Source of the DNA: Pseudomonadota bacterium
GTDB taxonomy: Bacteria > Myxococcota_A > Polyangia > Polyangiales > Polyangiaceae
DNA length: 11,035 nt
NCBI GenBank assembly: GCA_023411445.1
Contig: JAEYOT010000835.1
Span: 1-11,035, forward strand
Direction: 5' to 3'
Positions 8,846 through 11,035 of the stretch are shown piece after piece. The position numbers and the translations under genes were made by a program. The notes beneath the pieces are model-generated. The model ran no database searches, was not told the DNA's origin, and saw nothing but the letters and a program-made list of their open reading frames with translations. The stretch's first letter is position 1, and every line of letters starts with the position of its first letter.

Positions 8846-9349
8846 GTGCAGGGTCGTGCTTTGAAGCTCGCCGTCACGGCGCTCGCTGTGCTCGCGCTCG
8901 GCGTGGCGAGCTGCGGAGAGGAAGGGCTACTGCCGACGACCGTGAACCCTGGCGCTGACTTCGTGCAAGAGGACGTGAGGTTCGACGACCAGTATTACTA
9001 CTGCCGCGTGGAGCCCGTGCTCTTTCAACAGAGCTGCGGCTCGGGCGTGTCGGGAACGGATCCGGCGAACGGCTGCCACTTCAGCGTGACGAAGTTTCGC
9101 CTGACCGACTACATGCCTCGCGTGGCGGATAGCTGCAGCGGCGGCGTGCTGGCGCCGGGCACGCTCGTGCCGACGGCCGCGCAGCAGAACTACGCGGCCG
9201 CGCAGGCTCGCATGAAGCGCGATCCGGGCGTCGCCCCGCTGCTGCAGCGTCCGATCGGCAAAGCCCAACATCCCCGCACGATTTTCGCCGAAAACAGCGA
9301 CCAGGCAGACGTCATTCGCCAGTGGGCCACGCAGTTCTCGGGTCAGTGA
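8846..9349 (+). CDS. Cytochrome-c-like lipoprotein with CX12CH motif
   Basis: 167-residue predicted lipoprotein, first gene of the plus-strand operon. The N-terminus has a hydrophobic stretch LAVTALAVLALGVASC, lipidated Cys at 23. The mature part has VEPVLFQQSC followed 12 residues later by CH (GCHFS). 'V-x-P-[LI]-[FL]-x3-C...CH' is the layout of haem-c sites in many myxobacterial and planctomycete cytochrome-like proteins, but here CXXCH is expanded to CX12CH. The C-terminus IRQWATQFSG resembles the closing helix of a small cytochrome c domain. Haem binding is therefore possible but unproven. The start is either GTG 8846 or TTG 8861; the latter has AGGG seven bases upstream and gives MKLAVTALAV. 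The stop TGA shares its last base with the next ATG. Confidence 0.72.
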   Translation: MQGRALKLAVTALAVLALGVASCGEEGLLPTTVNPGADFVQEDVRFDDQYYYCRVEPVLFQQSCGSGVSGTDPANGCHFSVTKFRLTDYMPRVADSCSGGVLAPGTLVPTAAQQNYAAAQARMKRDPGVAPLLQRPIGKAQHPRTIFAENSDQADVIRQWATQFSGQ

Positions 9350-10104
9350 TGCGCGCCGGCTTGTTCCTCACCGTGGCGCTTGCGCCTGCCCTGGCCTGGG
9401 GTGCCGACGACGAAGACGCCTACGCGCGCGTGGTCGTGGCCGAGGCGGAGCTACGCGCCGGCCCCGGCGTCTCGCACCGCGTCATCTATCGCGCCCCGCG
9501 GGGTGAGACGTTTCTGATCTCCTCGCGCGAGACGACCGGCTTTTGGCTGCAGGTCACGCTCCCCGACGGGCGCATCGGCTACGTGCTGGGCGACACCGTG
9601 GAAGCCGTGGCAGCGAGCGACGACTCGGCCGAGGCGGCGCGCAAGCCGGGCTTCTTCGCGCCGCCGCCGCTGCGCGACGCCAACGGTGGCTTTGCGGTCA
9701 TGGCCGGCGTGTTCGGCAAGCTGGACGATCTCGACGGTTACACCGAGCTACGCCCGGCTTGGGTGATCGCCCCGGCCATCGCGTTCGAGCCGTATGTGGG
9801 CGTCGCGCTGAAGAGCGATAGCCGCAGCTTGGTCTACGGCGGCGCCGGCACCTTGATGATGACGCCGCACCTGCCCGTGTCCGGCTTCGTGAACATCGGC
9901 GCGGGTGGCGTGTACGAGGATCCCAAAGGCGAGTACGTGGAGGAGCCGAGCAAATGGTTTCACCTGCGCGCGGGCGCCGGTCTGCTCGTGAGCCTGCGCT
10001 TTCGCGTCTCGCTTCGGCTGGAGTGGTCCCACCTGGTGCTGTTTCGCGAGGACGATTACCAGAACAGCGAGACGTTCGCCGCTGGCCTGGGGACTTATTT
10101 CTGA
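9349..10104 (+). CDS. SH3-domain outer-membrane barrel-like protein
   Basis: 251-residue exported protein. A short signal peptide (MRAGLFLTVALAPALAWGA, about 1-19) is followed by a bacterial SH3 domain at about 25-88, with ARVVVAEAELRAGPG, the usual 'V.ali.LR.GPs' start, and WLQVTLPDGRIGYV, the usual 'W..V...G..GWV' end. Such domains bind peptidoglycan or partner proteins in the periplasm. From about 112 on, alternating strands with aromatic girdles (FEPYVGVAL, FVNIGAGGVY, HLRAGAGLLV, VSLRLEWSHL) end in GLGTYF; a terminal Phe is typical of outer-membrane beta-barrels. The ATG at 9349 overlaps the upstream stop (TGATG); the earlier ATG at 9322 lies inside the upstream gene. Probably anchors or organises the operon's envelope complex; exact role unknown. 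Confidence 0.8.
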   Translation: MRAGLFLTVALAPALAWGADDEDAYARVVVAEAELRAGPGVSHRVIYRAPRGETFLISSRETTGFWLQVTLPDGRIGYVLGDTVEAVAASDDSAEAARKPGFFAPPPLRDANGGFAVMAGVFGKLDDLDGYTELRPAWVIAPAIAFEPYVGVALKSDSRSLVYGGAGTLMMTPHLPVSGFVNIGAGGVYEDPKGEYVEEPSKWFHLRAGAGLLVSLRFRVSLRLEWSHLVLFREDDYQNSETFAAGLGTYF

Positions 10105-10331
10105 TGGAGCGAGTCATGGTGCTCTCGCGCTGCGTGCTGTTCGGGCTGGCCTCGCTGCTCGCCGCCGGTTGCGTCACCGTGCGGCCCGAGCAGCGCGCCG
10201 TGATGGCGGATCCCACGATGCGCTTCGACAGCGATCCAGGCGACGGCGCCGCGCGCGAGCGCGTGCTGGAGAACCGCGAGGGCTCGAGCGGGGGCAAGTC
10301 CGTCAAGGGTGGAGGTTGCGGTTGCAACTGA
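10104..10331 (+). CDS. DUF4266 small lipoprotein with C-terminal CGCN
   Basis: 75-residue lipoprotein. The signal peptide ends in a classic lipobox LLAAGC with Cys at 23. The mature chain is about 53 residues: VTVRPEQRAVMADPTMRF (the family's conserved block), an acidic and Arg-rich middle, then a Ser/Gly tail ending GGGCGCN, so Cys 72 and 74 form a C-x-C pair at the extreme C-terminus. This layout is diagnostic of DUF4266. The invariant tail could bind metal (Cu, Fe), form a redox pair for a thioredoxin, or be a modification site. The ATG at 10104 overlaps the previous stop (TGATG); ATG 10116 with GGAG six bases upstream is an equally good start. It is followed directly by DUF3570, the usual partner. 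Confidence 0.85.
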   Translation: MERVMVLSRCVLFGLASLLAAGCVTVRPEQRAVMADPTMRFDSDPGDGAARERVLENREGSSGGKSVKGGGCGCN

Positions 10332-11035
10332 TGCGGCTCGCCACGCTCAGCGGGGCCTTGGCGGCGCTGCTCACGACCGGCGTCGCCTCGGCGCAGGTGG
10401 CGGAGCTTTCGCCACGCGCCACGGTGCTGCTCGAGCCATCGTCGACCAGCCAGCTGATCGTGATCAACCCAACCGCTGGACTGACTGTCAGCCCGACGGA
10501 GTGGCTGGACGTGAACGTCGGCTACGAAGCGGACATCGTGTCGGGCGCCACGGAGTCGCTGAAGGGAGGGCCGTTGAGCCCCGTGGACATCGTGAGCAGC
10601 GCCACGGATTTCAGCGACACGCGCCACGTGGTTTCGGGCGGCGTGGGCGTGGACTACGAAGGCGTGAAGTACTCCGCCACCTACTCGCGCGGCATGGAGT
10701 CGGACTACCGCTCGCACGCGATCGCGGTCACGGCAGGCACCACCTTCTTCCAGAAGAACACGGAGCTCACTTTGGGCTACGGGCGCGGCGTCGACGAGGT
10801 GTGCACGACCGCGTTCAAGAGTAGCGACGCGCCCTCGGTAAGGACGCCGCTCGACAGCTCCAAGGGCTGCTTCAAGGCGAACGCCCAGAATCGCGCTCGC
10901 CGCGACGTGGACATCGACAACTTCCAAGCGAGCTGGACGCAAACCTGGACGCCCGTGTTCGCGACGCAGCTGGTGGCGTTCGCCGGCTTGCAGCACGGCT
11001 TCCTCGAGAACCCGTACCGCGCGGTCGTGAACGCC
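10331..11035 (+). CDS. DUF3570 outer-membrane protein, N-terminal 235 residues
   Basis: Open frame from ATG 10331 that runs off the right edge; the full family length is about 400 residues. The signal peptide ends ASA-Q at about 21. DUF3570 landmarks follow: WLDVNVGYEADIVSGATESL (58-77), VDIVSSATDFSDTR (85-98) and SRGMESDYRSHAIAV (119-133), then FFQKNTELTLGYGRGVDEV (139-157), matching the family's 'S.E.DY.S...fF.kNT.L.lGys...D'. The protein is predicted to be an outer-membrane beta-barrel. DIVSGAT (68-74) fits the ApbE flavinylation consensus D-x-x-[ST]-G-A-[ST], with T74 as potential FMN-threonine site; DIVSSAT (86-92) is a near copy. Cys 158 and 180 flank a loop. The start overlaps the DUF4266 stop (TGATG). 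Family assignment is firm; flavinylation is inference. Confidence 0.88.
   Translation, partial: MRLATLSGALAALLTTGVASAQVAELSPRATVLLEPSSTSQLIVINPTAGLTVSPTEWLDVNVGYEADIVSGATESLKGGPLSPVDIVSSATDFSDTRHVVSGGVGVDYEGVKYSATYSRGMESDYRSHAIAVTAGTTFFQKNTELTLGYGRGVDEVCTTAFKSSDAPSVRTPLDSSKGCFKANAQNRARRDVDIDNFQASWTQTWTPVFATQLVAFAGLQHGFLENPYRAVVNA

Follow-up and report, generated by a model that had tools for sequence, protein, structure and literature searches.

The DUF3570 protein whose gene runs off the end of the window, i.e., the whole 11,035-nucleotide stretch analysed here, is likely to form a 16-strand outer-membrane beta-barrel that receives FMN on Thr74, and probably also on Thr92, before its insertion, and that would exchange electrons on the outer side of the membrane. 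This reading draws on the computed conservation of both sites, the co-occurrence of ApbE with DUF3570, a recurrent gene group and a barrel model. The core idea of flavinylation is already known, since the modification of DUF3570 from Chlorobium luteolum has been published (eLife 2021, PMC8238504). New here are a four-gene module with an unlinked apbE, the recognition of DUF3570 as the lone one found of four substrate families sought in most apbE-bearing relatives, and the prediction of an outward topology; the local picture departs from the published one both in the gene neighbourhood and in the second site.

Published Flavinylation of DUF3570

It has been reported that the C. luteolum DUF3570 protein (ABB24424.1) is flavinylated by its ApbE at two sites, and that flavinylation is lost only when both predicted serines are replaced (PMC8238504). 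ApbE as the modifying enzyme, named in the initial annotation of the window, is right or likely right. The same work describes two conserved [S/T]GA[S/T] motifs in 228 DUF3570s, and gene clusters that hold DsbD, thioredoxin-like genes (the type named is Thioredoxin_7) and DUF4266. The C. luteolum construct lacked the signal peptide; its product, as described there, ended up largely in the insoluble pellet and was still flavinylated. In the literature searched, DUF3570, DUF4266 or PF12094 are named only in this study, whose main text contains neither "barrel" nor "porin" and uses "outer membrane" once, in another context. A 2024 follow-up (PMC11334425) models other ApbE substrates, and DUF3570 is absent from its main text. 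Thus, although the modification is established, the literature found gives no function for DUF3570, and an outward-facing topology was not found in the literature searched.

The DUF3570 Gene and Its Two Candidate Sites

The gene and its predicted sites are as follows:

10331..11035, forward strand: DUF3570 outer-membrane protein gene, first 235 residues, cut by the window end (PF12094 match)
10532..10552, forward strand: predicted flavinylation site 1, DIVSGAT, residues 68-74, proposed acceptor Thr74 (translation and conservation)
10586..10606, forward strand: predicted flavinylation site 2, DIVSSAT, residues 86-92, proposed acceptor Thr92, Gly position relaxed (translation and conservation)

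The partial reading frame scores 37.8 bits against PF12094 (cut-off 25), which bears out the family originally assigned to it. A 410-residue record listed with PF12094, P0003, served as the full-length stand-in, being the same as the window protein at all 235 window residues except 234 (window 11030-11032), where the window protein has Asn and P0003 has Ile. That column is invariably Ile in alignment A1 (56/56 rows), and the Asn is either a true variant or an error close to the window end. The window protein starts MRLATLSGALAALLTTGVASAQ, a predicted signal peptide as judged by eye, and P0003 ends in an aromatic residue, F410. A sequence search against solved structures gave unrelated enzymes as its best matches (best E 0.6), and a search of a plasmid collection gave no match.

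The positions first given for DIVSGAT and DIVSSAT are exact in the translation of 10331-11035 (forward strand). Set against the published pair of [S/T]GA[S/T] motifs, site 1 is strict and site 2 has Ser in place of Gly. When the sequence of P0003 was shuffled 20,000 times, the strict motif arose in 0.55% of the shuffles, and the strict motif together with a second D..[ST].A[ST] in 0.025%. Stronger evidence that the pair is not due to chance comes from homologues, in which both sites are conserved.

Conservation of the Two Sites

In the window-type clade, represented by the best 120 of 197 homologues (P0003 counted in), site 1 reads D[IV]V[ST]GA[ST] in 120/120. Site 2 reads D..[ST].A in all 120 as well, with T as the last residue in 118, S in 1 and P in 1, and has Gly in 5/120. 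A second clade, sampled as the best 120 of at least 808 homologues of a Kofleriaceae-type member, is 31-35% identical to the first; its site 1 is [ST]GAT in 120/120 and its site 2 D..[ST].AT in 120/120, with Gly in 3. Pooling the two clades, site 1 is strict in 240/240 homologues, while site 2 retains D, S/T and A in 240/240, a final S/T in 239/240 and Gly in 8/240. Likewise, a 64-row alignment of 53 second-clade and 11 window-type rows shows no variation at the D, G and A in site 1 or at the D, A and T in site 2. The initial annotation had let its case depend on conservation of the Asp, Gly and Thr of the motif: at site 1, D, G, A and S/T are kept in 240/240, and at site 2 the Gly is mostly replaced. 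A third clade (best 120 of at least 395 homologues) possesses one site, D..[ST]SAS, located within the first 130 residues in 119/120 and at about residue 132 in the remaining one; the strict pattern is found in 0/120 of these single-site proteins, and Ser takes the place of the Gly in every one. Strict motif scans therefore miss sites, because the Gly is relaxed.

A wider census covered 32 loci of relatives of the window protein, obtained by a profile scan of genome contigs with alignment A1 (a single-protein query confirmed no relative), and 51 regions chosen by hand from a listing of the class, for which reason it is to be read as a sample. After removal of 3 duplicates and 4 matches without the relevant region, the 84 DUF3570 matches gave 77 proteins, 60 with two sites and 17 with one. 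Among the pairs, the fifth residue of site 1 is G in 48, S in 11 and A in 1 (one of the Gly-at-site-1 pairs, at locus L087, may be a single-site protein), and that of site 2 is S in 19, T in 15, A in 14, Q in 6, H in 2, N in 2, G in 1 and R in 1. The single sites have S in 15 and A in 2. Single-site proteins of the D..[ST][SA]AS type occur at L053, L054, L055 and other loci, and one genome of the class, G110, holds 10 DUF3570 matches.

The variability of site 2 bears on whether FMN is carried by site 1 alone, with site 2 a degenerate copy or one whose sole role is structural, in shaping the hairpin. Such an arrangement would fit the lack of Gly at site 2 in 232/240 homologues, where a few replacements are even R, K, E, Q, H or V, as well as the single homologue with Pro at the acceptor position and the existence of a clade with one site. 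We nevertheless consider it rather unlikely: the D, A and acceptor S/T persist as the Gly varies, the pattern expected from selection on an acceptor, and both sites are used in C. luteolum (PMC8238504). Locus L052 also speaks for the use of sites without Gly. Its gene cluster comprises a C-x(4)-CH protein, a CXXCH protein, DUF2271, DUF3570, one additional protein, a thioredoxin-like protein and ApbE, accompanied by a divergent DUF4266 gene, and its apbE lies 2.3 kb from DUF3570. The three candidate sites of this cluster, DIWTSAS and DVRTAAT in DUF3570 and DAVTSAS in DUF2271, all lack Gly and thus support a relaxed ApbE target rule. This stretch (L052:4700-10700) brings ApbE together with DUF2271 and DUF3570, the two DUF families published as substrates.

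The motif given for ApbE in a 2025 review (PMC12052999) is D-x-x-[S/T]-G-A-[S/T]. According to this review, replacing the Gly by Ala in another protein leaves flavinylation at about 50%, and replacing the last Thr by Ala abolishes it. Because loss of the Gly there halves rather than abolishes the modification, it is plausible by analogy that a working site 2 could tolerate Ser at that position.

Gene Neighbourhood of DUF3570

Three further genes lie 5′ of DUF3570 in the window:

8846..9349, forward strand: predicted lipoprotein with C-x(12)-CH (homologues near DUF3570 in relatives)
9322..10104, forward strand: SH3-domain protein, start uncertain (GTG 9322 or later), PF08239 (SH3_3) 36 bits, cut-off 27
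10104..10331, forward strand: DUF4266 small lipoprotein (by inspection), C-terminal CGCN, Cys codons 10317-10319 and 10323-10325 (PF14086)

They share the strand of DUF3570 and overlap or abut one another, and the stop of the DUF4266 gene overlaps the DUF3570 start codon. The DUF4266 product scores 60 bits against PF14086 (cut-off 27) and carries a C-terminal CXC. By eye, the C-terminal half of the SH3_3 protein seems beta-rich. The C-x(12)-CH lipoprotein has no Pfam or NCBIfam match, and a conserved HPR lies further downstream in it. A profile of this lipoprotein matched 42 proteins, all 42 with C-x(n)-CH, in which n is mostly 10 to 13 (13 in 18) and otherwise 4 to 9, one protein having both 3 and 10. 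Judging from its sequence, it may be an atypical c-type haem protein in which the spacer is unusual, or a former one that has lost its haem.

The C-x(n)-CH lipoprotein, the SH3 protein, the DUF4266 CXC lipoprotein and DUF3570 make up a four-gene module. Among the 48 census loci whose site 1 has Gly, DUF4266 is found near DUF3570 in 47/48, the SH3 protein in 45/48 and the C-x(n)-CH lipoprotein in 41/48, counting same-strand genes from -3.2 to +3.5 kb of DUF3570. This span is complete upstream in 40 loci, downstream in 39 and on both sides in 32. Within it, an ApbE or TlpA-type thioredoxin match occurs at 0/48 loci (32/48 with the full span), so that the original claim that apbE and thioredoxin genes commonly adjoin DUF3570 finds no support in this clade. 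An apbE beside DUF3570 was rejected for the window-type clade, with no instance among the loci examined. Neither family occurs among the 13 window reading frames scanned, i.e., up to position 11035. Where site 1 of a two-site protein lacks Gly (12 loci), a thioredoxin is near in 7 and apbE in 1, the L052 cluster; DUF4266 lies near DUF3570 at 17/17 single-site loci. The same-strand counts leave out five divergent DUF4266 genes (L052, L060-L062, L076), and a second-round profile ("cyt1") that matched DUF4266 genes was left out of the neighbour counts. The nine minus-strand reading frames of the window that were scanned match DUF2325, CNNM/CBS/CorC_HlyC, PfkB, guanylate kinase, YicC and DUF507 in Pfam; the rest are one with a RelA_SpoT match under the cut-off and two without a match.

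ApbE in Related Genomes and Across the Class

ApbE is present in 11/12 related genomes, with one match each, and in 11/11 of the apbE-bearing ones it lies on a different contig from any listed DUF3570. Thioredoxin_7 is present in 12/12 of these genomes, in none of them within 20 kb of a listed DUF3570. Viewing 7 of the 11 unlinked apbE loci by eye revealed no obvious substrate gene nearby. FMN_bind, DUF2271 and NqrB/RnfD each occur in 1/12 genomes, FMN_bind and NqrB/RnfD sharing one. Since these three families are mostly absent, DUF3570 is the only one found of four substrate families sought in 9/11 apbE-bearing genomes. Over 144 genomes of the class, ApbE occurs in 81/86 with DUF3570 versus 33/58 without (odds ratio 12, Fisher p 1e-7, uncorrected for kinship and assembly completeness).

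The initial annotation had also proposed scoring motif conservation by the presence of ApbE. Loss of the motif from DUF3570 of ApbE-less genomes was considered and rejected: ApbE went undetected in five DUF3570 genomes, and 7/7 DUF3570 genes examined from four of them keep a motif, perhaps because of incomplete assemblies. This persistence, together with the unlinked position of apbE in relatives, could be taken to mean that in this clade the motif is purely structural and has nothing to do with flavinylation. We hold this to be highly improbable, given that flavinylation of the family is published (PMC8238504), that ApbE and DUF3570 co-occur across the class, and that most related genomes lack the other three substrate families.

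Predicted Barrel and Topology of the Sites

AlphaFold2 models were obtained for P0003 (56 sequences; mean pLDDT 81, pTM 0.73) and for P0123 of the second clade (64 sequences; mean pLDDT 78, pTM 0.74). Each contains 16 long strands, excluding strands of 3-4 residues inside loops, and has the fold of an outer-membrane beta-barrel; the outer-membrane barrel originally proposed is right or likely right. Foldseek matches were many, mainly generic outer-membrane barrels, and uninformative on function. In both models, one site lies on either side of the hairpin that joins strands 3 and 4. This hairpin is poorly modelled, with pLDDT below 50 at residues 75-90 of P0003 and 81-90 of P0123, and is the least certain part of both models.

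Outer-membrane barrels usually have both chain ends in the periplasm. With 16 strands, this rule would put the strand 3-4 hairpin outside. Loops after odd strands, on the side of the sites, have mean lengths of 16.5 and 16.4 residues in the two models, versus 4.6 and 4.4 after even strands; on its own, this asymmetry falls short of significance (p 0.07 and 0.29) and is only suggestive of topology. In the 56-row alignment, the mean entropy rises from 0.77 bit in outer loops through 1.09 in strands to 1.58 in periplasmic turns, and columns below 0.3 bit make up 49%, 26% and 9%, respectively. Typical porins have the opposite pattern to these better-conserved outer loops. Both models thus place the two sites on the outward-facing, better-conserved side.

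On the other hand, the flavins might face the periplasm or lie far inside the lumen, and DUF3570 would then be a redox station of the periplasm with an outer-membrane anchor, not a redox protein of the surface. The low confidence of the site hairpin and the periplasmic location of ApbE and of the proposed partners are in keeping with such a location, which the strand count with the chain-end rule and the long, conserved loops on the side of the sites argue against; we judge it improbable, although to be taken seriously. The initial annotation had regarded a model placing the motif outside the periplasm as refuting flavinylation, and this is the placement that the models suggest. An outside position need not refute it, because the signal-less and mostly insoluble C. 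luteolum DUF3570 was flavinylated (PMC8238504).

Comparison with Known Systems

The window protein resembles the C. luteolum DUF3570 in its Pfam family, in having two sites (predicted ones here) and in the presence of DUF4266 with a C-terminal CXC in the gene group; the equivalence of the C. luteolum and window-type sites rests on the description in PMC8238504. While the published clusters contain apbE and often a thioredoxin-like gene or DsbD, the window has genes for the SH3 protein and the C-x(n)-CH lipoprotein, its relatives carry apbE elsewhere, and its site 2 lacks Gly. Other ApbE substrates are soluble domains or proteins of the cytosolic membrane as described in PMC11334425, in contrast to DUF3570, which is modelled as an outer-membrane barrel. 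What they have in common is an extracytosolic motif resembling D-x-x-[ST]-G-A-[ST] that holds a Thr or Ser, the residue flavinylated in those substrates.

Porin-cytochrome conduits of the MtrCAB type combine a barrel with redox partners and carry electrons across the outer membrane. The likeness to DUF3570 is one of idea only, a barrel plus redox partners being proposed for both. Unlike MtrCAB, the module has no visible multihaem cytochrome, the DUF3570 barrel would itself bear the flavin, and it has 16 strands. The Mtr barrel 6r2q_B is one of 126 barrel-type Foldseek matches (E 0.001 or better; 50 shown).

Proposed Mechanism and Significance

For the window protein we infer flavinylation, its timing before insertion, a surface position, and electron transfer and its direction. 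In the preferred model, ApbE would flavinylate the unfolded DUF3570 chain in the periplasm on Thr74 and probably also on Thr92, and the BAM machinery would then insert the flavinylated chain into the outer membrane. From the behaviour of the signal-less C. luteolum protein (PMC8238504), insertion itself seems not to be needed for flavinylation. After insertion, one or two FMNs would sit on the strand 3-4 hairpin, either on the outward side or tucked into the barrel mouth. They would pass electrons between an acceptor or donor on the cell surface and two periplasmic partners encoded in the gene group, the DUF4266 lipoprotein with its CXC and the C-x(n)-CH lipoprotein. Iron is one possible acceptor, because the iron transporter VIT1 occurs in 25 of the published clusters (PMC8238504). 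It counts against this model that a large distance would separate an FMN on the outside from its periplasmic partners, unless some component reaches into the barrel.

A bolder version, which we offer only tentatively, would be a cytochrome-independent outer-membrane conduit, in which two FMNs face each other across the surface hairpin and are fed from below by the DUF4266 protein or the C-x(n)-CH lipoprotein, with the ApbE target widened to D-x-x-[ST]-x-A-[ST]. In the P0123 model, Thr79 and Thr92 would be cross-strand partners by residue count, not by coordinates.

The predicted outward-facing topology makes electron transfer across the outer membrane testable. If the flavins do face outward, a single compact protein could serve bacteria for redox chemistry at their surface in place of multihaem conduits, and numerous barrels now annotated as hypothetical would become redox proteins.
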